DNA of 64,000 nucleotides from Spirochaetota bacterium (GTDB lineage Bacteria > Spirochaetota > UBA4802 > UBA5368), in assembly GCA_035477215.1 (NCBI GenBank), contig DATIKU010000016.1, positions 1-64,000 of the forward strand. Direction: 5' to 3'. The notes below the pieces were generated by a model. The model saw nothing but the letters and a program-made list of their open reading frames with translations, had not been told where the DNA came from and did no database searches. Below are positions 22,965 to 34,363 of the stretch, in pieces. Every line of letters starts with the position of its first letter. The stretch's first letter is position 1. The translations under genes and the position numbers were made by a program.

Positions 22965-23585
22965 ATGGAAAATCCAGCAATAACCGTAACGGCACAATCC
23001 ATATCGAAATCCTTCGGCCCCGCAAAGGTTTTTGAAGGCATTTCGTTTTCACTTGGCACGGGCGAGTCGATTGCCGTAACCGGACCCAACGGTTCGGGGA
23101 AATCGACACTGTGTGAGATCGGCGCCGGCATCCGCCGTCCAACGGGCGGATCCATCGAGTATTCTCTTAACGGCCAACCACTTTCCGGGGACGGGCTTTT
23201 AAGCGTCATCGGAATAGCGAGCCCGAGAATCAATCCCTACGAAGCGCTGTCGGGCATGGAGAACGTCGAGTTCGCCGCACGCTCGCGCGGCATCGACCCG
23301 TCGTCGGCCCTGCCATTATTTGAATCGTTTGGGCTTAACCGTCATCACGGCAAGGCACTCCGCCATTACTCATCGGGTATGCGGCAGCGCCTTAAATTCA
23401 TTCTCGCGGTGCTGCACCGCCCCTCCCTGCTCATACTTGACGAACCCGGATCCAACCTCGATTCCGAGGGCAGGAGGCAGCTCGCCGCGTATCTCGACTC
23501 GCTGCGTGCGCGCACCGCCATCATCATCGCAACCAACGACGCGGAAGAGGCCCGCCTCTGCACCGGGGCGGTGCGCCTTGCTTAA
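22965..23585 (+). CDS. ccmA: Cytochrome c maturation ABC transporter ATPase CcmA
   Basis: A 206-residue ABC ATPase with Walker A GPNGSGKST, signature YSSGMRQRLKF and Walker B LLILDEP. Its place just before ccmB identifies it as CcmA, which with CcmB uses ATP to release holo-CcmE from CcmC. The start is set at ATG 22965; the frame is open further upstream but without similarity. The stop overlaps the TTG start of ccmB. Confidence 0.88.
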   Translation: MENPAITVTAQSISKSFGPAKVFEGISFSLGTGESIAVTGPNGSGKSTLCEIGAGIRRPTGGSIEYSLNGQPLSGDGLLSVIGIASPRINPYEALSGMENVEFAARSRGIDPSSALPLFESFGLNRHHGKALRHYSSGMRQRLKFILAVLHRPSLLILDEPGSNLDSEGRRQLAAYLDSLRARTAIIIATNDAEEARLCTGAVRLA

Positions 23586-24234
23586 CGCGATAATCGGCAA
23601 CATCGTCAAGGACTTCCGCATCGAGTTCAGGCGGCGCTTCGCGGTGAACATCGCCCTTTCGTTCGCTGCCATAACGACGCTCGCGGTCAGCCTCACCGCG
23701 GGGGGCGTGCTGTTGGGCGCGCAGACACAGGCCATGCTCTTCTGGATCATCCTGTTTTTCAGCGCCATGAACGGCCTGGCGCACGTCTTCACGCGCGAAG
23801 AGGAGGAAGGCACCGCGCTCTTTCTGCGGGTCACCTCCCCGGCCGCCGCGGTATACACGGCGAAACTCGTTTTCAACACCGCCGTCATTTTCATCATCGC
23901 CGCCGTTATAAGCCCGCTCTACGTGTTTTTCCTGAACGTCGACATCGCCGCCCCGGCCGCTTTCGCGGCCGCGACCTGCGCCGGCTCTCTCGCCATCGCG
24001 TCTTCGACCACGGTGCTCGCCGCCATCGTCGCCAGGGCGGGCGGGCGTGGCTCGCTCTTTACGATCATCTCGTTTCCCGTTGTGCTTCCCCCGCTGTGGG
24101 TCGCCGTCGGGGCCACCCGGACCTCGATCGCCGGAAGCGCCTCGGCCGAGGGCGTGGTTTTTTTACTTGCATTTTCGGGTGCGCTCGTCGCTGTATCGTA
24201 TATGCTTTTCGGACACATCTGGATCGAAGAATAA
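23578..24234 (+). CDS. ccmB: Heme exporter subunit CcmB
   Basis: A 218-residue membrane protein with six hydrophobic segments. It opens with IVKDFRIEFRRRFAVN, the usual CcmB beginning, and has FTREEEEGTALFLRVTS. The start is TTG at 23578, inside the end of ccmA (TTGCTTAA overlap), so translation is coupled. It pairs with CcmA in the inner membrane. Confidence 0.88.
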   Translation: MLNAIIGNIVKDFRIEFRRRFAVNIALSFAAITTLAVSLTAGGVLLGAQTQAMLFWIILFFSAMNGLAHVFTREEEEGTALFLRVTSPAAAVYTAKLVFNTAVIFIIAAVISPLYVFFLNVDIAAPAAFAAATCAGSLAIASSTTVLAAIVARAGGRGSLFTIISFPVVLPPLWVAVGATRTSIAGSASAEGVVFLLAFSGALVAVSYMLFGHIWIEE

Positions 24235-24254
24235 TCCCTGGCGGCGCAACCGAA

Positions 24255-24920
24255 ATGTTAATCACACGACTTGTTTACATTTTCATGCCCGCAGCAGTCA
24301 TAATGGCGTTCTGCTACGCGCCGGCCGCCGCGGTCCTGGGCGAAACGAGCAGGCTGCTCTACTTCCACGTGCCGCTCGCATGGATTTCGGTCATGGCCTT
24401 TACCGTATCGGGCGCGGCTGCGGTTCTGTTTCTGGCCGATAAAAAAGGCCGCTTCCCGCGCCTGGAAGATTCCTTCCACAATTCCGCTTCGCTCGGCATG
24501 CTTGCCGCGGTGCTTGCCACGGCAAGCGGATCGGTCTGGGCGAAGCTCATGTGGGGAAGCTACTGGAACTGGGACCCGCGCCAGACCTCGATCGTCATCC
24601 TGCTCCTGATCTACTCGGCCTATTTCAGCCTGCGCTCTACGCTTGCCGGAAAGCACGCGCGGGGACGGCTCTCGGCGGCCTACCTCATCATCGCGATGAC
24701 CGTCATGCCGTTTTTCGTTTTCGTCGTGCCGCGCGTCTTCCCGTCGCTGCACCCCGACCCCGTCATCAATCCCGATATGAAAATACATCTCGAGGCCGAA
24801 ATGAAACTTACGCTGATCGTCTCGGTCGTCGCCTTTTCCCTGCTTTATTTTTACCTCCTTGAAATCCTGAACAGGCCGTCGAGAATTCGTAATGCCGTGG
24901 AGGTCTCCCACGATGAATAA
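24255..24920 (+). CDS. ccmC: Heme-handling protein CcmC
   Basis: A 221-residue member of the heme-handling family with six membrane segments. The tryptophan-rich WWD-type loop reads AKLMWGSYWNWDPRQTS, and the external histidines are in LLYFHVPLAW and FPSLHPDP. CcmC loads heme onto CcmE at the periplasmic face. Starts at ATG 24255, 20 bases after ccmB. No CcmD follows: the short frame at 24913 codes for only 13 residues and has no helix. Confidence 0.9.
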   Translation: MLITRLVYIFMPAAVIMAFCYAPAAAVLGETSRLLYFHVPLAWISVMAFTVSGAAAVLFLADKKGRFPRLEDSFHNSASLGMLAAVLATASGSVWAKLMWGSYWNWDPRQTSIVILLLIYSAYFSLRSTLAGKHARGRLSAAYLIIAMTVMPFFVFVVPRVFPSLHPDPVINPDMKIHLEAEMKLTLIVSVVAFSLLYFYLLEILNRPSRIRNAVEVSHDE

Positions 24921-24950
24921 AGGACCATGCCCGGCCCGGGAGGAAGATCG

Positions 24951-25325
24951 ATGAACGCTAAACGAATCGTCGGCGTCCTCATTGTCGCCGCCTGCGTCAC
25001 CATCGCCGCCTTTTCTATGAGCGGCATGCTTACGCCCTATGTATCGTTCGCCGACGCGATGAAGTCCGGCGAATACGTTCAGATCATCGGCGCGCGTCCG
25101 AAGTCGGCCCCGGTCGAATATTCCGGGGGCTCCTTCGCCTTCACGCTGCGCGACGAGGATGGAGCGTCGCTGCGGGTGGTCCACCGAGGCGTCAAGGCGC
25201 AGAACTTCGAGCATGCCGACAAGATCGTCGCGCTCGGCACCTATGATGCACCGAGCGGTATCTTCGTCGCGGACAGGCTGCTGGTCAAATGTCCATCAAA
25301 ATACACTGGAGAAAAACAGCAATGA
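24951..25325 (+). CDS. ccmE: Heme chaperone CcmE, CxxxY variant
   Basis: A 124-residue CcmE with an N-terminal membrane anchor and an OB-fold (YVSFADAMKSGEYVQIIG, FTLRDEDGASLRV). The heme-binding motif, HxxxY in standard CcmE, here reads RLLVKCPSKY, giving Cys114 and Tyr118. The Cys variant is known from archaea and Desulfovibrio and marks the so-called System I* pathway. ATG 24951 has a strong GGAGGAAGATCG site. The stop overlaps the ccmF start (ATGA). Confidence 0.93.
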   Translation: MNAKRIVGVLIVAACVTIAAFSMSGMLTPYVSFADAMKSGEYVQIIGARPKSAPVEYSGGSFAFTLRDEDGASLRVVHRGVKAQNFEHADKIVALGTYDAPSGIFVADRLLVKCPSKYTGEKQQ

Positions 25326-27511
25326 ATACAGGCACAGTCCTTATCATGGTCTCGCTTGTCCTTTCGCTGGTATCGCTCTATTTTCTGGCACGGGGCGCCG
25401 CGGGAAACGTTATGGCGAAGATCACCGCGCGTCGCATATTCTATCTTTCCGGCATTTCAATCACCTTCGCCGTAATTTTACTTTTCTTCGCCTTCATCAG
25501 CCAAAGCTTTCAGTTCAACTACGTTTACAGCTATTCCTCGCGGGAACTGCCACTGGCCTACATCATCGCGGGATTCTGGGCCGGACAGGAGGGAACGTTT
25601 CTGCTGTGGGTATTCATCCTGTACATCCTCGGCTTTTTCGTGATACGTTCCAATGACCGGGACGAGTGCCTGGTGATGTCGATCGTTACCATCAGCCAGG
25701 TTTTTCTCCTGCTCGTACTCGTCATCTACAGCCCCTTCCGCTATCTCTGGCAGGCGCATCCGGAACGGTTCGCCGTGGGCGTGATACCGCCGGACGGCGC
25801 GGGGCTCAATCCCCTTCTGCAAGACCCGTGGATGATGGCGCACCCGCCGGTGCTTTTCATCGGCTACGCCGCGGCGACCATTATATTCGCCTACGCGATC
25901 GCCGCGCTTTTACGAAACGATTTTTCCACCTGGGTCGCCCGGAGCTACCGGTGGACGCTGTTCACCATGACCTCGCTGGGCATCGGCATATTCCTGGGCG
26001 GATACTGGGCCTACAAGGTCCTTGGATGGGGCGGGTACTGGGGCTGGGACCCGGTCGAAAACTCATCGCTGATCCCCTGGCTGGTGCTGGTCGCGCTCAT
26101 GCACGGGATGATCGTGCAGCGGCGAAGTGGCGCGCTCGTGCGCACGAACATCGCGCTGGCGCTCCTCTCGTTCATCCTGGTGTTCTACAGCACCTTCCTC
26201 ACCCGAAGCGGCGTGCTCTCGGATTTCTCGGTGCACTCCTTCTCCGACCTCGGCCTTTCGCGGCACCTTTTATTTTTCATGTTGTTCTATGTAGTTATCG
26301 CGGCATTTCTCTTTGCGAAGCGCTTCAGGGATATGCGTTCGGCGAAGCTCGGCGAGTCCGCGGTCGCCTGGGATACGCTTGTGGCCTACGGCATCATCAC
26401 GCTCTGCCTCTACGCCTTTCTGATCCTGGTCGGGACATCGATGCCGATAGTCTCATCGATCTTCTCGGCCCCCTTCTCCCTGCAGCCCGGCTACTATAAC
26501 GGCATCTCGGTCCCCTTGGGCCTGCTCATCCTGGGAACCATCGGGCTCGTGGGGATATTCCAATTCCAGAAAAAGCCGTCCAAATGGAAGCTTGCGGCGA
26601 CCGGCGTTGCCGCGGTGGTTCTTGCCCTGCTTTTCAACATAAACCACACCGCGAAAGCGGCCGCCTATGCCTTCTCAGCGGCCGCTTTCTTCGTGGCGAT
26701 CCTGGGCGTCGTGGACCTTTTAAGGCTCAAACCCGCGGCCGTCCTCTCGTCGCGGCTTGCGCATATCGGCGTCGCGGTGATGGTGCTCGGAATCATCGCA
26801 TCCTCGCTGCATTCGACCACCGAGCACCGGGAGCTGCCGCTGGGAAAATACACGGTCATCGAGTCGACCGCGCTCACCTTCAGGGGCCTTACCGACGCCG
26901 AAAAATCCGCCCTCGCCTTTACCTTCGCACGAGGACGTTCGGTAAGCGAGATCGAAACACCGTATTACATGGATGGGCGGACGCACTCGCTTTACCGCGA
27001 GCCGTACATCAGTTATGGATTCGCTCACGACGTCTACATTTCGCCGGTGGAATACCGCTCGGGGCTGGATTCACTGACAAGGTTCGTCATTGAAAAGGGC
27101 TCGACCGTCGAGTCGCAGGGAATGAAGATCACTTTTACGGGCTTCGATATCGACCGGCAGCACATGATGGCGGGCGGCGATATGAAGCTCTTCGCGAAAC
27201 TCGCGTTCGAGCGCGGCCCCCACTCGGCATCGATCCGGCCGGGCCTTGAGCTCCGGGGCGGGGACGGCCGCAAGTCCATAGCGGCAAGGATTCCCTTTAC
27301 GGGGCAGGAGGTGCGCCTACTCGATTTCAACGTGAGCGACGGAACGGTCCATATTTTCGTGGAGGCGCCGAAAGGCGCAGCGGTTCCGCCGGATTCGGCC
27401 ATCGTCGAGGTTTCGTTCAAGCGACTCATCTGGTTCGTGTGGCTGGGTACGATCTTCATCGCTCTCGGGGGGGCCTTTGCCATTCGCCGGGCCGGGGGAA
27501 AGGGCCTGTAA
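25322..27511 (+). CDS. ccmF: Cytochrome c heme lyase subunit CcmF
   Basis: A 729-residue polytopic membrane protein. The WWD domain is VLGWGGYWGWDPVENSSLIPWL, followed by LTRSGVLSDFSVHSF with a conserved external His. A large periplasmic region near the C-terminus precedes the last helix (LIWFVWLGTIFIALGGAFAIRR). CcmF attaches heme to apocytochrome CxxCH motifs. In standard systems it works with CcmH and CcmI; neither is encoded nearby. It is coupled to ccmE by a 4-base overlap and ends the operon. Confidence 0.94.
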   Translation: MNTGTVLIMVSLVLSLVSLYFLARGAAGNVMAKITARRIFYLSGISITFAVILLFFAFISQSFQFNYVYSYSSRELPLAYIIAGFWAGQEGTFLLWVFILYILGFFVIRSNDRDECLVMSIVTISQVFLLLVLVIYSPFRYLWQAHPERFAVGVIPPDGAGLNPLLQDPWMMAHPPVLFIGYAAATIIFAYAIAALLRNDFSTWVARSYRWTLFTMTSLGIGIFLGGYWAYKVLGWGGYWGWDPVENSSLIPWLVLVALMHGMIVQRRSGALVRTNIALALLSFILVFYSTFLTRSGVLSDFSVHSFSDLGLSRHLLFFMLFYVVIAAFLFAKRFRDMRSAKLGESAVAWDTLVAYGIITLCLYAFLILVGTSMPIVSSIFSAPFSLQPGYYNGISVPLGLLILGTIGLVGIFQFQKKPSKWKLAATGVAAVVLALLFNINHTAKAAAYAFSAAAFFVAILGVVDLLRLKPAAVLSSRLAHIGVAVMVLGIIASSLHSTTEHRELPLGKYTVIESTALTFRGLTDAEKSALAFTFARGRSVSEIETPYYMDGRTHSLYREPYISYGFAHDVYISPVEYRSGLDSLTRFVIEKGSTVESQGMKITFTGFDIDRQHMMAGGDMKLFAKLAFERGPHSASIRPGLELRGGDGRKSIAARIPFTGQEVRLLDFNVSDGTVHIFVEAPKGAAVPPDSAIVEVSFKRLIWFVWLGTIFIALGGAFAIRRAGGKGL

Positions 27512-27530: not shown

Positions 27531-28520
27531 CTATGAGGGTATGTGCCCGGCCGGTCGCGCTTCGTAAAGCGTAATGGCCCCGGCCGGACAGGCCGCGGCG
27601 CACAGGCCGCAGCCGATGCATCCCTCGCCCAACCGCGCCGCGTCATCGTCGCACTCGATCGCGCGTACCGGACAGATATCCACGCATTCGCCGCACGCCG
27701 TGCACGCGGTCTCGTCAACGCGCGCGATAAAGCGGCTGGGGGCGAGTACCCCGGCTGTTTTCGCGTTCGAGGCATAACGCAGCATCTCGCAGCAGCAGGG
27801 GCAGCAGTTGCATATGGCGTTACCCATCCCCGCCCTGTTCTCGACCATGTGGACAAGTCCGGCCTCCTCGGCCTTTTTTAAAAGATCCAGCGCCCCGGCC
27901 CGGTCGATCTGTCGGCCGGTCCCACGCTTCAGCGTGTACTCGGCCCCGCGGTTGAGCTGGATGCACACCTCGACCGGCCTCTCGCACAGCTTCTGCGACT
28001 TGCGGCACACGCAGGGAACCACGGCGATCGAGCGCGCCTCCTCGATAAGGCGCGCGGCGTCTTCGTAAACGAGAACGCCGCTCTGCGCGTCCACCGTACG
28101 GTTAATGGGAATCACCCTCATAAAGGAGGGCATGTTCACCTGGGTTACGAGTTCCAGAAGCTCCACATACTCGGTGTCCATAAATCTGACCCACAGCCCG
28201 TTCATCTCCTCCGGAGCGCCGTCCCAGAGCAGGGTGGCGTCGTGGAACTGCACGACGTGCCGCGGCATGCGGTACACGGTCGCGCCGTCGCGGACCGATT
28301 CGAAAACGGCGCCCTTTCTAAAAAGGGAATCGAGCATCTTCTCCATTTCCGCCGGTGGCATTCCCGCCCTGCCGGCAAGCTCGGAAGACGTGCCGGGGAG
28401 CATCGCCACAACCCGGGCCTCGGCCTCGCTGCATACGGCCTGCCATATCCTCGGAAGGAGCTTTGAATTTTCCATCATGAGCTTTCGCGAGAGCTCGTGG
28501 TAAATGTCGCCTGTTCCCAT
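27531..28520 (-). CDS. Iron-sulfur protein with winged-helix-like N-terminus and 2x[4Fe-4S] domain (329 aa)
   Basis: The N-terminal third looks helical and HTH-like (TSSELAGRAGMPPAEMEKMLDSLFRKGAVFE). The middle contains VPCVCRKSQKLCERPVEVC and ICNCCPCCCEML, cysteine sets seen in a family of 4Fe-4S proteins linked to anaerobic metabolism. The C-terminus is a bacterial ferredoxin domain with CTACGECVDICPVRAI and CIGCGLCAAACPAGAI, binding two [4Fe-4S] clusters. It may be an electron carrier or redox sensor. It converges with ccmF and is the last gene of the leftward signalling block. Confidence 0.8.
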   Translation of the reverse strand: MGTGDIYHELSRKLMMENSKLLPRIWQAVCSEAEARVVAMLPGTSSELAGRAGMPPAEMEKMLDSLFRKGAVFESVRDGATVYRMPRHVVQFHDATLLWDGAPEEMNGLWVRFMDTEYVELLELVTQVNMPSFMRVIPINRTVDAQSGVLVYEDAARLIEEARSIAVVPCVCRKSQKLCERPVEVCIQLNRGAEYTLKRGTGRQIDRAGALDLLKKAEEAGLVHMVENRAGMGNAICNCCPCCCEMLRYASNAKTAGVLAPSRFIARVDETACTACGECVDICPVRAIECDDDAARLGEGCIGCGLCAAACPAGAITLYEARPAGHIPS

Positions 28521-28540: not shown

Positions 28541-29809
28541 TCATTGTTTCTCTTCAACGAGTACGGGCAGGAGCACCTCCGCGAGCACGCAGCTTCGGGG
28601 ATCCCTGCCGGTGTGGTCCTTGACATCGTGTATCAGGAAGACGCCGTTGTGTTTGCGTACGATATTGTCGACCACCGCAAGGCCAAGCCCGAAGCCGAAC
28701 TTTTCTATGCGCGCAGCCGACTCGTCGGGAGGCAGGAGCCGGAAGAACGGCTCCACTACCAGCTTTTCGTACTCCGCCCGGATGCCCCCGTACGGCTTCT
28801 CCGGGACGTCGTTTTTCACCGAAAGCCAGAAGTATCCCTCGCTGATGTGCCCGAAGACGTTTATCGTGCTTCCCCTGACCGAGTACTTGTACGCGTTGAC
28901 GATGAGCTCTTCAATCATGAGTCCGAGCTTTTCAAAATTGAGGTCCAGCACGCAATTCAAATTGAGCTCCGGATAGGTTATGCGGAGGTTCTTGCTCTCC
29001 AGATAGGGCGCGATCTCGTTTATCATTCCGGGGAGGGCCTCTATCAGTTCGGACGCGCTGGAGCGCGAGAGCGGGAATTTTTCATCCATGATCTCGGTCG
29101 TCGCCTGAAGGCCGTCAAGCTGGTTGCGGCAATAGACGTTGTTCTCGACCAGCAGGTTGATAATGTCCCTGCCGATCACATAGCTGTCGCCCTGGGACGT
29201 CATGGTCGCGGACATGACGTCGATAAGCGACACGAGCGTCCCGAAACCGGCCCCCTGCGAAAGGGACGTTTTCAGATTGTACACCGATTTCGTCTCGGTG
29301 TAATCCTTGTCGGCCACGCGCCTGCTCTCCTTGTAATTGAGCCACTCGATCTGGCTGCGTATCTTGAGGCCCGCGCTCATGCTCATGTTCCGCTCGTGAT
29401 CGCGCAGTGCCTTGTACTCCAGGCCCCGGGCTACGCTGTTCTGGAAGAGCTCGGGATCGATGGGCTTGATGATATAATCGAAGGCGCCCATCTTCATTAT
29501 GTCGATGATGGTATTCGGCGAATCGAGCGCGGTCTCGACAAGTACCACCGACTCGGGCAGGCGTTTTTTCAGGTGGGATATGAAGGTCTTTCCGTCCATG
29601 ACGGGCATCATGAGGTCCACGATAAAGAGCGAAAATTCCCGTTCATCGAGCATCTTGAGCGCCGCCTCTCCGTTCGAAGCGACGACAGCGGGAACATCCA
29701 TGTTCTTGCATATGCTCTGCAGCAGGGACTGCGTCTGTTTTGTGTCTTCGACGATCAGTATCGGCTGCTTCGGCCGGTAGACCGCCGTTTTCCTGATTGC
29801 TTCATTCAT
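28541..29809 (-). CDS. Receiver-ATPase signalling protein lacking an evident phospho-acceptor histidine (422 aa)
   Basis: Residues about 17-130 form a response-regulator receiver domain (PILIVEDTKQT, phospho-Asp in FIVDLMMPVMDG, KPID). A linker of about 130 residues has no H-box of the HELRTP or LHDG type. The C-terminus is a GHKL ATPase with EELIVNAYKYS (N box) and KFGFGLGLAVVDNI (G box). The combination is receiver plus ATPase without dimerisation histidine. It may be a kinase with a divergent H-box, a phosphatase or an inactive partner. It is 33 bases from the hybrid kinase upstream, so co-transcribed. Confidence 0.8.
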   Translation of the reverse strand: MNEAIRKTAVYRPKQPILIVEDTKQTQSLLQSICKNMDVPAVVASNGEAALKMLDEREFSLFIVDLMMPVMDGKTFISHLKKRLPESVVLVETALDSPNTIIDIMKMGAFDYIIKPIDPELFQNSVARGLEYKALRDHERNMSMSAGLKIRSQIEWLNYKESRRVADKDYTETKSVYNLKTSLSQGAGFGTLVSLIDVMSATMTSQGDSYVIGRDIINLLVENNVYCRNQLDGLQATTEIMDEKFPLSRSSASELIEALPGMINEIAPYLESKNLRITYPELNLNCVLDLNFEKLGLMIEELIVNAYKYSVRGSTINVFGHISEGYFWLSVKNDVPEKPYGGIRAEYEKLVVEPFFRLLPPDESAARIEKFGFGLGLAVVDNIVRKHNGVFLIHDVKDHTGRDPRSCVLAEVLLPVLVEEKQ

Positions 29810-29842: not shown

Positions 29843-31480
29843 TCAACCCTCGCGATCCGAACAGCTTGCTTCCCGGCAAAGCGGCAGGCTCACGGTAAAG
29901 GTGCTCCCCATGCCCGGGACGCTCCTCACGCCGATCCTTCCGCCATGCGCCTCCACGATCATGCGTGAAATCGTCAGCCCCAGGCCCGTCCCCTGGGTGT
30001 CGCGGTCGAGCTCCGAATTCACCTGGCTGAACTTCTCGAAAATGAAGGACAGGTGTTCCTTTCCGATCCCCTTTCCGGTATCCGTAACATCGATCACGAG
30101 CATCGTCCCGTCGGTCCCGGATTCAATTTTGACCGTACCGCCCGGTTTGTTGAACTTTATCGCGTTTGAAATCAGGTTGATGAACACCTGCTGCAAACGT
30201 TTGGCATCGCCGCATACCACGAGGTCATCCCGCAGACTCCAGTGGTTTTCGAGGGACACGCCCTTCTCTGCGGCCTGCACCGTCATCATCGCCACGCACG
30301 CGCCCATGATATCGCCGGGCCGCTGGGGCGCCCGCTCAAAATCAAATTTGCCCGATTCGATCTTTGAGACGTCGAGGATATCGTTGATGATCTGAAGCAG
30401 GTGCAGTCCGGACGAAAGGATATTTTCGAGATACCCGGCGAAATCGCCCTTTTCCACCTGCATCTTCATGAGTTTGGAAAACCCGATGATCGAGTTGAGC
30501 GGCGTACGCAGCTCGTGACTCATGTTGGCGAGAAACTCGCTCTTGGCACGGTTGGCCGATTCGGCCAGTTCCATCGCCTTTTTAAGCTCCTTCTCCGCCT
30601 TTTCCCGCTCGGCGACCTCGTTACGGAGCTTATCGTTGGCGGCGCTGATCTCCGCGGTGCGCTCCATCACCATCTCCTCGAGATGGTCGCGGTGCCGGCG
30701 CAGCTCTTCCTCCGCCTTCCTGCGCTCGCTGATATCGCGGAAGCTCAGCACTCCCCCGGCGACGGCCTCTTTTTCGTCGAGGATAACGGACATGCCGAAC
30801 TCGATATTTTTATTAACCCCATGCCGGTCGATCAGGATAAAATCGTCGTTCAAAGAAGAGTCCGGCATTCCGGCATCGGCCAGCTTCATTATATTTACGG
30901 TGCCGGTCACGCCCGGGGCCGGCGCGACCCTGAAGACCTCCTCCAACGGCTTTCCCTTCGCTTCCTCTGCGGACCAGCCGGTGAGGTGTTCGCCGTACGG
31001 ATTGAGAAAAACCAGCCGGCCTTCCGTGTCGACGGCGGCGACGCCTTCCCCTATGTTTTTCAGTGTCGCGGACAACCGTCGCTCGCTTTCACGCACCCTG
31101 TTTTCCATGCGATGGCGGTAGAGCGCCATTTCTATTGAAATGGAGAGGTCCCTCTCGTCAAAGGGCTTGCGAATGTAGCCGTGGGGTTCGGTAATCTTGG
31201 CCCGCTGCAGCGTGGTATCGTCGTCATAGGCGGTGAGATAGACGACCGGCACATCGAAATAGGCGCTGACCTTTTCGGCCGCGTCGATGCCGTCCATCTC
31301 GCCCTGGAGCATGATGTCCATCAGCACGATGTCGGGGCGAAGCTCCGGGATCCTGCCGACCGCCTCTTCCCCCGAAGTGGCGACCCCGGCGATCCCGTAT
31401 CCCATCGACTCCAGAACATTCTGGAGGTCCCGCGAGACGATCTTTTCGTCCTCTACTATGAATATTCGCGCACCCAACAT
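29843..31480 (-). CDS. REC-PAS-histidine kinase (545 aa)
   Basis: An N-terminal receiver (IFIVEDEKIVS, DIVLMDIMLQGEMDG, YIRKPFDERDL) is followed by a PAS domain (about 130-265, GRLVFLNPYGEHLTGW), a coiled linker, HisKA with FLANMSHELRTPLNSI (phospho-His) and HATPase_c with NLISNAIKFN, DTGKGI and GTGLGLTIS. A cytoplasmic kinase with no membrane segments, controlled by phosphorylation of its own receiver and a PAS ligand. A promoter candidate lies at 31514-31541. Confidence 0.92.
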   Translation of the reverse strand: MLGARIFIVEDEKIVSRDLQNVLESMGYGIAGVATSGEEAVGRIPELRPDIVLMDIMLQGEMDGIDAAEKVSAYFDVPVVYLTAYDDDTTLQRAKITEPHGYIRKPFDERDLSISIEMALYRHRMENRVRESERRLSATLKNIGEGVAAVDTEGRLVFLNPYGEHLTGWSAEEAKGKPLEEVFRVAPAPGVTGTVNIMKLADAGMPDSSLNDDFILIDRHGVNKNIEFGMSVILDEKEAVAGGVLSFRDISERRKAEEELRRHRDHLEEMVMERTAEISAANDKLRNEVAEREKAEKELKKAMELAESANRAKSEFLANMSHELRTPLNSIIGFSKLMKMQVEKGDFAGYLENILSSGLHLLQIINDILDVSKIESGKFDFERAPQRPGDIMGACVAMMTVQAAEKGVSLENHWSLRDDLVVCGDAKRLQQVFINLISNAIKFNKPGGTVKIESGTDGTMLVIDVTDTGKGIGKEHLSFIFEKFSQVNSELDRDTQGTGLGLTISRMIVEAHGGRIGVRSVPGMGSTFTVSLPLCREASCSDREG

Positions 31481-31513
31481 TGTGTTGTTCCTGCCCGGAT
31501 GACCCCGATAAAA

Positions 31514-31541
31514 ACTGTAGGTGAAAACAGGGACAAGTCAA
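31514..31541 (-). promoter_or_regulatory. Sigma-70-type promoter of the REC-PAS kinase
   Basis: On the minus strand TTGACT (31541-31536), 16 bases, TACAGT (31519-31514), then 34 bases to the kinase start. It separates the hybrid kinase from the upstream regulator gene. Confidence 0.45.
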
Positions 31542-31560
31542 GAGAATAAAAAAACGGCGC

Positions 31561-32247
31561 TCACGGCCGGCCATGCGTCCATTCGATCGCGAACTTTACC
31601 AGCCGTACGCTGTTCTTCAAATGAAGTTTTTCGCGTATGCGCAGACGATGAGTCTCAATGGTCTTTATGCTGACGTTGAGCTTTCTGGCGATATCCGAAC
31701 TCGTATTGCCGCTTCCGACAAGCCGCAGGACCTCGAGTTCGCGGTCCGAAAGGCGCTCAACGGGGTCCATGGCCTTATTAGAACGGCGATACGTCAGACC
31801 GCCGAGAAGGCGGGAGGACATCGCGCCGCCAAGGTACACCTTGCCGGCGAGCACCGCGCGAGCGGCATCCACAAGCTTGGCGGTAAGCTCGTTCTTCATC
31901 ATGTATCCCCGTGCGCCCGAGCGGATTACGCGCTCGGCGTACAGGGATTCTTCGTGCATCGAAAGCACCAGGACCGGAAGCTTCGGATAACGACGCCGCA
32001 ATACCTTGATGAGCTCGAGGCCGCTTACGCCCTCCTCGAGCGAAATGTCCACTATCACGAGATCGGGCCTGATCTTCTCGACGGCGCGGATGGCCCCGTC
32101 CGAATCCTCCGCGTACCCGGCTATGCGCAGATCCTTTTCGCGGCTGAACAGCTTTTCGAGCCCCTCGTAGACGATAGGGTGATCGTCAACCACCAGAATT
32201 TTTGCCGCCTTGGGCTCTTTTATTTTTTCCGCCGCCTTTTCGTTCAT
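31561..32247 (-). CDS. NarL/LuxR-family response regulator
   Basis: A 228-residue regulator: receiver domain with KILVVDDHPIVYEGLE and phospho-Asp in LVIVDISLEEG, then a GerE helix-turn-helix with LSDRELEVLRLVGSGNTSSDIARKL and VSIKTIETHRLRIREKL (read as two pieces). Its 5' end overlaps the upstream HisKA_3 kinase by 62 bases. NarL-type regulators are the normal partners of HisKA_3 kinases, so the two are a cognate pair. Confidence 0.93.
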   Translation of the reverse strand: MNEKAAEKIKEPKAAKILVVDDHPIVYEGLEKLFSREKDLRIAGYAEDSDGAIRAVEKIRPDLVIVDISLEEGVSGLELIKVLRRRYPKLPVLVLSMHEESLYAERVIRSGARGYMMKNELTAKLVDAARAVLAGKVYLGGAMSSRLLGGLTYRRSNKAMDPVERLSDRELEVLRLVGSGNTSSDIARKLNVSIKTIETHRLRIREKLHLKNSVRLVKFAIEWTHGRP

Positions 32248-34363
32248 ATCCGCCCCGTCCTTTTATCCTGAATTTGCATACGACCTCCGTGCCTCCCCCC
32301 CGTCCCCTTTGCACCGACAGAGTCCCACCGATAAGCCGCGCCCGGTGCTTCATGAGAGAGAGCCCCAGCCCGGCCATGTGCCGCGTTTCATCACTTATAC
32401 CAACACCGTCATCACGGACTTCAACGGCAAGGAGGTCCCCGCTCTGATGGAATGCTATCACTACACGATGGGCCCCGGAATGCTTTACGACATTGGCCAG
32501 CGCTTCGTTGATGATATAATACAGCTGGGTCGAAACCGTGGCGTCATCTACCTGGAAAGAGCGCGGCGCCTCTATAAGGCAGTCGATCGAGTACCGCCCC
32601 TTCATCTCCCGGACCATCTCACCGAGGAGGGCACGAAAATTTTCGTTCTCTCCGACCAGCGGCAGCAAACCCCTGGCCAGGGTGCGCACGTCCTCGATGG
32701 CCCGGTTTATCCCGTTTTCCACGGCAAGCGCCTCCTCTTCTTCGCCGATCGCGCGTTCTTTCAGGCGCTCGTACAGAAGGCGGCATCGAATGGCGACTCC
32801 CAGAAGATGGTGACTCACCCCGTCGTGCAGATCCATGCCGATGCGCTGCCGTTCCCGCTGGGTGGCGGCCAGTACGTTACCCTCGACCTTGAGCCGCTCG
32901 GTGATATCCCTCAGGTTGATGATGACCCCCTCGACCTCGTCCCCGCGGGAGCCCCTGAATGGATACATGGAGATTTCCATATAGCGCAATCCCGGAACCG
33001 GATATTCGCAGAGCTGTTCGAAAAAAATCTCCCTGCCCGAGAGACATGACTGAAACGAGCGTCCGAAAATCTCGTCGGACCGACCCGATCCGAAAAGCTC
33101 CGCGAGCGGCCGCCCGACAGCCTCGTCTTTCCCCAGGTTGAAGGCACGGGTAAATTCCTCGTTGGCCGCGCGCACCAGCATTGACGCGTCCGCGAACACC
33201 ATCTGGTCTTTTGTATGCGACACGATGCGGCGATAGAGCGAAAGCTCCTGATCGGCCTTCCGGCGTTCCAGAAGGTTAACGAAAATCTCGCCGACTATCC
33301 TGAGCAGCGCGATGATGTCATCGGACCACGATTTATATACCCGCACCGAGTCGAAGCCGAGAAACCCGATGAGTTCACCGCATAGCACCAGGGGCACCGA
33401 CACCAGCGATTTCACGCCCATCCCGCAGGCGATGCCTCGAAGGCCTCCCGCCTGCGCAGGCAGCTCGTCCATGCGCGGGACGTGTACCGTCTCGAACCTT
33501 GCATGACGCTCGACGAGCCAGCGCAGCGGGCGCGCGGGCGCTCCCTCAAGCGCACCGATTCCGGGACCGACACCCCGCGCCCGCCATTCGTACGCGCCGG
33601 TGATGGAGCTCCTGTCGCCGGCGAGAAGCGCTATATGGCACCGGTCCACGCGCGCGAAGTCGCCGATCATCTTGAGTGCGTGCTTGATTCCTCCATCGAT
33701 TTCATCGGACGGAATGTTTATGAAACGAGTCGCGATGGTGGCAACCAGGTTCTCGAATTCGCAGCGCTCCCGAAGGGCCTCCTCCATGCGCTTTCTCTCG
33801 GTGATGTCGCGCGTAACACCGAGGATCGCGATTGGTCCCCCCGAGTCGTCCCTGACGAACGAGGCATTCGTTTCCGTCCATACCCTGCGCCCGTGTCTCT
33901 TCTCACTCTCCATTTCGACGAAGGGGAGGGATCTATCGGGATCGCGCCGGTGGTCGTTCGCCAGTTCGTCGGCTATTATGCGTCTGGCCTCCCTTCGGTT
34001 TTTTCTGTCCATGTTGGCGCCGAGCGGCGATCCAATGCACCGCTCGGGCGCAATGCCAAATATCTCCTCGGAATAAGAGTTCGCGTAGATATAGCGCAGG
34101 GTGTGCACATCGAGCGCCCAGATGGCGTCCCGCACGTTGTCGGCGATTAGGCGCAAAAAATCCTCGCGCCCGGGGAGAGTGCGTATAACCTCGTTCTTTC
34201 CCGGCCGCACCCGTGAAGATTCGGATGTCACGGAAGGAGATGCCCCGCGGGAAGCGGGCCGCCGTTGGGCCTTCATGTTCTTCACATTCTTCCTCATGTC
34301 CATTCGCCGGTTGAATCGAAATGCCCTGCCGACAAAAAGGCCGCCATCCGCTCTCATCTCCAA
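32186..34363 (-). CDS. PAS-GAF-PAS-HisKA_3 histidine kinase
   Basis: A soluble kinase of up to 725 residues. Domains in order: PAS (about 65-190, RYIYANSYSEEIFG), GAF (about 205-355), a second PAS (about 375-490), HisKA_3 with RQRIGMDLHDGVSHHLLG (His in LHDG), and HATPase_c with INEALANVVKHS, RDDGVGIS and GLGLSLMKHRA. The start is uncertain: ATG 34363, 34303 or 34276. It forms a NarL-type two-component pair with the overlapping regulator. No membrane segments, so it senses an internal or diffusible signal. Confidence 0.92.
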   Translation of the reverse strand: MEMRADGGLFVGRAFRFNRRMDMRKNVKNMKAQRRPASRGASPSVTSESSRVRPGKNEVIRTLPGREDFLRLIADNVRDAIWALDVHTLRYIYANSYSEEIFGIAPERCIGSPLGANMDRKNRREARRIIADELANDHRRDPDRSLPFVEMESEKRHGRRVWTETNASFVRDDSGGPIAILGVTRDITERKRMEEALRERCEFENLVATIATRFINIPSDEIDGGIKHALKMIGDFARVDRCHIALLAGDRSSITGAYEWRARGVGPGIGALEGAPARPLRWLVERHARFETVHVPRMDELPAQAGGLRGIACGMGVKSLVSVPLVLCGELIGFLGFDSVRVYKSWSDDIIALLRIVGEIFVNLLERRKADQELSLYRRIVSHTKDQMVFADASMLVRAANEEFTRAFNLGKDEAVGRPLAELFGSGRSDEIFGRSFQSCLSGREIFFEQLCEYPVPGLRYMEISMYPFRGSRGDEVEGVIINLRDITERLKVEGNVLAATQRERQRIGMDLHDGVSHHLLGVAIRCRLLYERLKERAIGEEEEALAVENGINRAIEDVRTLARGLLPLVGENENFRALLGEMVREMKGRYSIDCLIEAPRSFQVDDATVSTQLYYIINEALANVVKHSGAHRVVIAFHQSGDLLAVEVRDDGVGISDETRHMAGLGLSLMKHRARLIGGTLSVQRGRGGGTEVVCKFRIKGRGGYERKGGGKNKRAQGGKNSGG

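Follow-up and report, generated by a model that had tools for sequence, protein, structure and literature searches.

Can a cluster of five genes serve as a complete cytochrome c maturation machine in a spirochaete? This question is raised by a compact ccmA-B-C-E-F cluster (positions 22965 to 27511, plus strand) in a 64,000-nucleotide stretch of DNA from a Spirochaetota bacterium (contig DATIKU010000016.1 of assembly GCA_035477215.1), which is referred to here as the window. The operon very probably encodes a streamlined machine of the System I* type, a variant of cytochrome c maturation that goes back to a 2006 description by Allen and colleagues (as cited in PMC9084895 and PMC3601427). It is a member of System I, with CcmABC, CcmE and CcmF carrying the WWD heme-handling motifs, and it belongs to System I* both by the CxxxY motif of its CcmE and by the absence of CcmH, a mark in the original 2006 definition. 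It is an ordinary, typical member of the described variant and is common to all relatives that have the machine.

The gene ccmE (24951..25325, +) encodes a membrane-anchored OB-fold heme chaperone (PF03100, 1.5e-11), and its likely start is ATG 24951, downstream of a good ribosome site GGAGGAAG. With this start, the motif KCPSKY comprises Cys114 and Tyr118, the same numbering as in the initial annotation, and stands in place of the HxxxY of E. coli-type CcmE. Within bacterial System I*, no motif is more common than CPSKY (PMC3601427). The predicted model of CcmE (predicted local distance difference test, pLDDT, 88) matches CcmE structures, and the best solved structure for a CcmE profile in the PDB is 2KCT, the Cys-type CcmE of Desulfovibrio vulgaris; a PHMMER search of the PDB with the single CcmE sequence returned nothing meaningful.

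The conservation of the motif was followed in a phylum sample of 393 genomes, 82 of which encode CcmE, including 41 CcmE-bearing genomes of the order to which this bacterium belongs. The cysteine is present in all 81 readable CcmE genes, within KCPSKY, KCASKY or close variants; an apparent KHYEGY motif in one CcmE (L117) was a pattern artefact, the actual motif being KCPSRY. The cysteine codon is thus not a sequencing error. The rival view that an ordinary HxxxY CcmE was missequenced or misassembled here has only the draft state of the assembly in its favour; it is already refuted by this conservation and can be given practically no weight.

The single cytochrome c synthetase subunit is encoded by ccmF (25322..27511, +; PF01578 1.3e-34, CcmF_C PF16327 1.1e-15). 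CcmF matches the Thermus thermophilus CcmF 6ZMQ in sequence (3.4e-54), its predicted model (pLDDT 90) reaches a template modelling score of 0.82 to 6ZMQ, relative to the target, and in the alignment it keeps the WWD motif and the four invariant histidines H174, H261, H305, and H481. CcmC, the heme-handling protein encoded by ccmC (24255..24920, +; likely start ATG 24255; Cytochrom_C_asm PF01578 5.1e-27), has a WWD motif and two periplasmic histidines (H38 and H166) that are near-invariant in an alignment of 41 sequences. The β-rich periplasmic part of CcmF (residues 497-702), which is longer here, was considered as a replacement for CcmH and rejected, as no CcmH-like or tetratricopeptide repeat fold was seen in it. 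The idea is further weakened by the longer CcmF proteins of other families of the phylum (mostly 836-873 amino acids in open frames), some of whose genomes have CcmH. An apparent CcmE-CcmF fusion in one relative (G195) crosses a block of N and is an artefact. A second full-length CcmF-like gene lies on another contig in a further genome of the order (G180; C238 and C300, L062), from which it appears that CcmF duplication may occur there.

The ATPase of the heme-handling ATP-binding cassette complex is encoded by ccmA (22965..23585, +; ABC_tran 1.5e-19). Its product matches the CcmA equivalog model with 4e-25, below the model's cut-off, and its identification draws partly on its operon position, which is kept across the order. 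The membrane subunit is encoded by ccmB (23578..24234, +; CcmB PF03379 5.8e-15). Reading of the sequence suggests that ccmB probably starts at TTG 23578, inside the 3' end of ccmA, and that ccmF likely starts at ATG 25322, within an ATGA that also contains the stop codon of ccmE; the upstream ATG 25289 is rejected on the same ground as an over-extension. Neighbouring genes overlap or are separated by at most 30 bases, and Pfam matches and inspection agree with the gene order given initially.

Whether the machine is complete without further partners depends on what is encoded elsewhere in the genome, a draft of 3.57 Mb in 62 contigs that is 95.5% complete, in which presence and absence were judged by family-model searches. 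One CcmE and one CcmF are encoded genome-wide, and the CcmH family (PF03918) has no match. The best match to the CcmD model PF04995, which is short and weak, reaches 16.8 bits against a cut-off of 25.6, and the gap between ccmC and ccmE is only 30 bases. A genome search of this kind had been proposed together with the claim that ccmD, ccmG, ccmH, and ccmI are missing from the cluster; this holds, in that no such reading frame is recognised in or beside it. The findings named there as fatal to a System I*-like reading, namely an HxxxY CcmE together with CcmH elsewhere in the genome or an erroneous cysteine codon, did not materialise: the genome yielded neither protein, and the codon is conserved. 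Three proteins match PF01578, namely CcmC, CcmF, and a HemX-like protein whose gene adjoins hemA and which was rejected as part of a second assembly system. No second system of the CcsA type was found via PF01578, ResB not being among the models searched.

An alternative is that the set is scattered rather than minimal, with further partners encoded elsewhere: a CcmH or CcmI that has diverged, or else a thiol reductase supplied by a DsbD-type protein. Such a DsbD-type protein is indeed encoded at C31:47311, and CcmH persists in other families of the phylum, in some cases apart from ccmE. Against this, the CcmH-family model has no match throughout the genomes of the order, although it does detect CcmH in sister families, and ccmABCEF1F2 is sufficient in Methanosarcina. 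We therefore regard scattered partners as unlikely, and a minimal machine as the better reading. Several points nevertheless weigh against the latter. At 95.5% completeness, a lost ccmH or ccmD is not strictly excludable in this genome. The genome-wide searches behind its minimality were those for CcmH and CcmD, and CcmG and CcmI, like ResB, lay outside them, which also leaves room for scattered partners. Reports on covalent heme binding by Cys-type CcmE differ between Desulfovibrio desulfuricans and D. vulgaris (PMC3884852).

A CcmH protein is encoded by 26 members of the 393-genome phylum sample; 25 of them belong to the 82 with CcmE. These CcmH proteins match PF03918 and have a cysteine-rich motif (CxCGC...CN). 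The share of 25 in 82 agrees with a review from 2011, according to which about one third of bacteria with Cys-type CcmE have CcmH (PMC3601427). The System I*-like reading of the initial annotation stands as regards a Cys-type CcmE set without CcmH, but the lack of CcmH is not a defining trait. The closest named relatives by CcmF are 'Spirochaetes bacterium' metagenome-assembled genomes (92% and 87% identical), in line with the spirochaete-like origin first proposed from the DNA. In the CcmF tree, in which other phyla are represented by best matches only, the order groups with its named relatives in one clade (46 sequences, support 1.0), and the other sampled families of the phylum make up a second (14 sequences, support 1.0). 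The two clades join at a support of 0.705. Families with both Cys-type CcmE and CcmH (represented by genomes such as G048, G068, and G075) group weakly with the order by CcmF; they have a KC[PA]SKY CcmE as here but, unlike this order, retain CcmH.

With E. coli System I (CcmABCDEFGH) the operon shares the CcmABCEF core, the WWD motifs, and the conserved CcmF histidines, whereas the E. coli system has an HxxxY CcmE as well as CcmD, CcmG, and CcmH. The Desulfovibrio System I* has a Cys-type CcmE as here, and its ccm set is reported in PMC3601427 to be functional in E. coli with neither CcmH nor CcmG present. However, D. desulfuricans has and needs CcmD, as stated in PMC9084895, while none is found above the cut-off here. 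The ccmABCEF1F2 genes of Methanosarcina acetivorans mature cytochrome c in another host, and the cysteine of CcmE is required (PMC9084895). This set has a CxxxY CcmE and lacks CcmH, as here, and it also lacks CcmD, for which the spirochaete genome gave no match above the cut-off, but its CcmF is split in two and its genes do not form one operon, in contrast to the single operon and single full-length CcmF of the spirochaete.

By analogy with the work on Desulfovibrio and Methanosarcina, CcmABC would present heme on the periplasmic side and load it onto CcmE via Cys114, with Tyr118 nearby. CcmE would then hand the heme to CcmF, which would attach it to the CXXCH motifs, and probably also to a CXXCK motif, of secreted apocytochromes without CcmH. 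The same work suggests that the five proteins may suffice.

Substrates for such a machine are encoded in the genome. The search for CxxCH proteins suggested at the outset revealed clustered CXXCH motifs of several multiheme cytochromes, namely NrfHA, DsrJ, a QrcA-like protein, and proteins like cytochromes c3, c7, and c554, and also of a membrane protein with an eightfold CXXCH motif. It could be argued that CcmABC, CcmE, and CcmF perform another heme task, such as export or delivery to b-type proteins. Nothing in the searches favours this, and it is very improbable in view of the multiheme cytochromes and of the lack of any other assembly system found. Moreover, four genomes of one family of the order lack CcmE, any PF01578 protein, and NrfA together, and this joint loss ties the operon to cytochrome c.

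An nrfH-nrfA pair is located at G000 C58 (L096:5194-7186, minus strand), and heme 1 of this NrfA has a CXXCK motif, the four others being CXXCH. CXXCK is found in 25 of the 28 full-length NrfA proteins of the order, and one family (three genomes) has CXXCH at this position. Attachment of the CXXCK heme requires NrfEFG in E. coli and NrfI in Wolinella, and Shewanella seems to handle it with CcmF and CcmI (PMC12285233). The NrfF/CcmH family has no member in the order, NrfE or a CcsA-type lyase was not found in this genome, and for its CXXCK NrfA no maturation machinery other than ccmABCEF was found; some relatives encode further PF01578 proteins of about 250-310 amino acids. On balance, we lean slightly towards a single System I* CcmF that, with no CcmH/NrfF, NrfE or System II lyase to assist it, attaches heme in this order to both CXXCH and the NrfA CXXCK motif.

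Further genes were noted elsewhere in the genome. Of the eight CXXCH motifs in a 903-amino-acid protein (G000 C37, L091:4548-7259), seven lie in the C-terminal part; the multi-pass membrane N-terminus of this protein resembles cytochrome bd subunit I by eye and has no Pfam match. NCBIfam models identify dsrA and dsrB as well as a dsrMKJOP set, with scores above their cut-offs (C58:181323-183142, L219:12871-15212; C30, L220:2690-7715), which suggests that this spirochaete has a dissimilatory metabolism of sulfite or sulfate. The presence of dsrAB in Spirochaetota has already been reported (PMC10591310).

In the window, ccmF is followed convergently by a gene (27531-28520, minus strand) for a 329-amino-acid protein with two C-terminal 4Fe-4S motifs. 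This gene had been said to suit an anaerobic respiratory context; it is present as described, but that context rests on the NrfHA and Dsr genes elsewhere in the genome and not on it. Its place next to ccm is shared only with the close relatives L033 and L034. As its neighbourhood is conserved only at the genus level, it says little about function, and a functional link to the ccm genes is unsupported. The next gene (28541-29809, minus strand) encodes a response-regulator receiver followed by an HATPase domain, with no HisKA domain recognised. It adjoins more histidine kinases (29843-34363), and its closeness to ccm is conserved among some of the order's members.

With this operon, a spirochaete order is firmly added to the range of the described minimal variant of cytochrome c maturation. 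Lineages with and without CcmH in the same phylum have Cys-type CcmE in common, so that the change in CcmE and the loss of CcmH are separable. If a single CcmF does serve both motifs, it would act on them as one synthetase against a minimal background. The operon also provides a simple setting in which to study how nitrite reductase receives its CXXCK heme with no recourse to the dedicated factors NrfEFG or NrfI.
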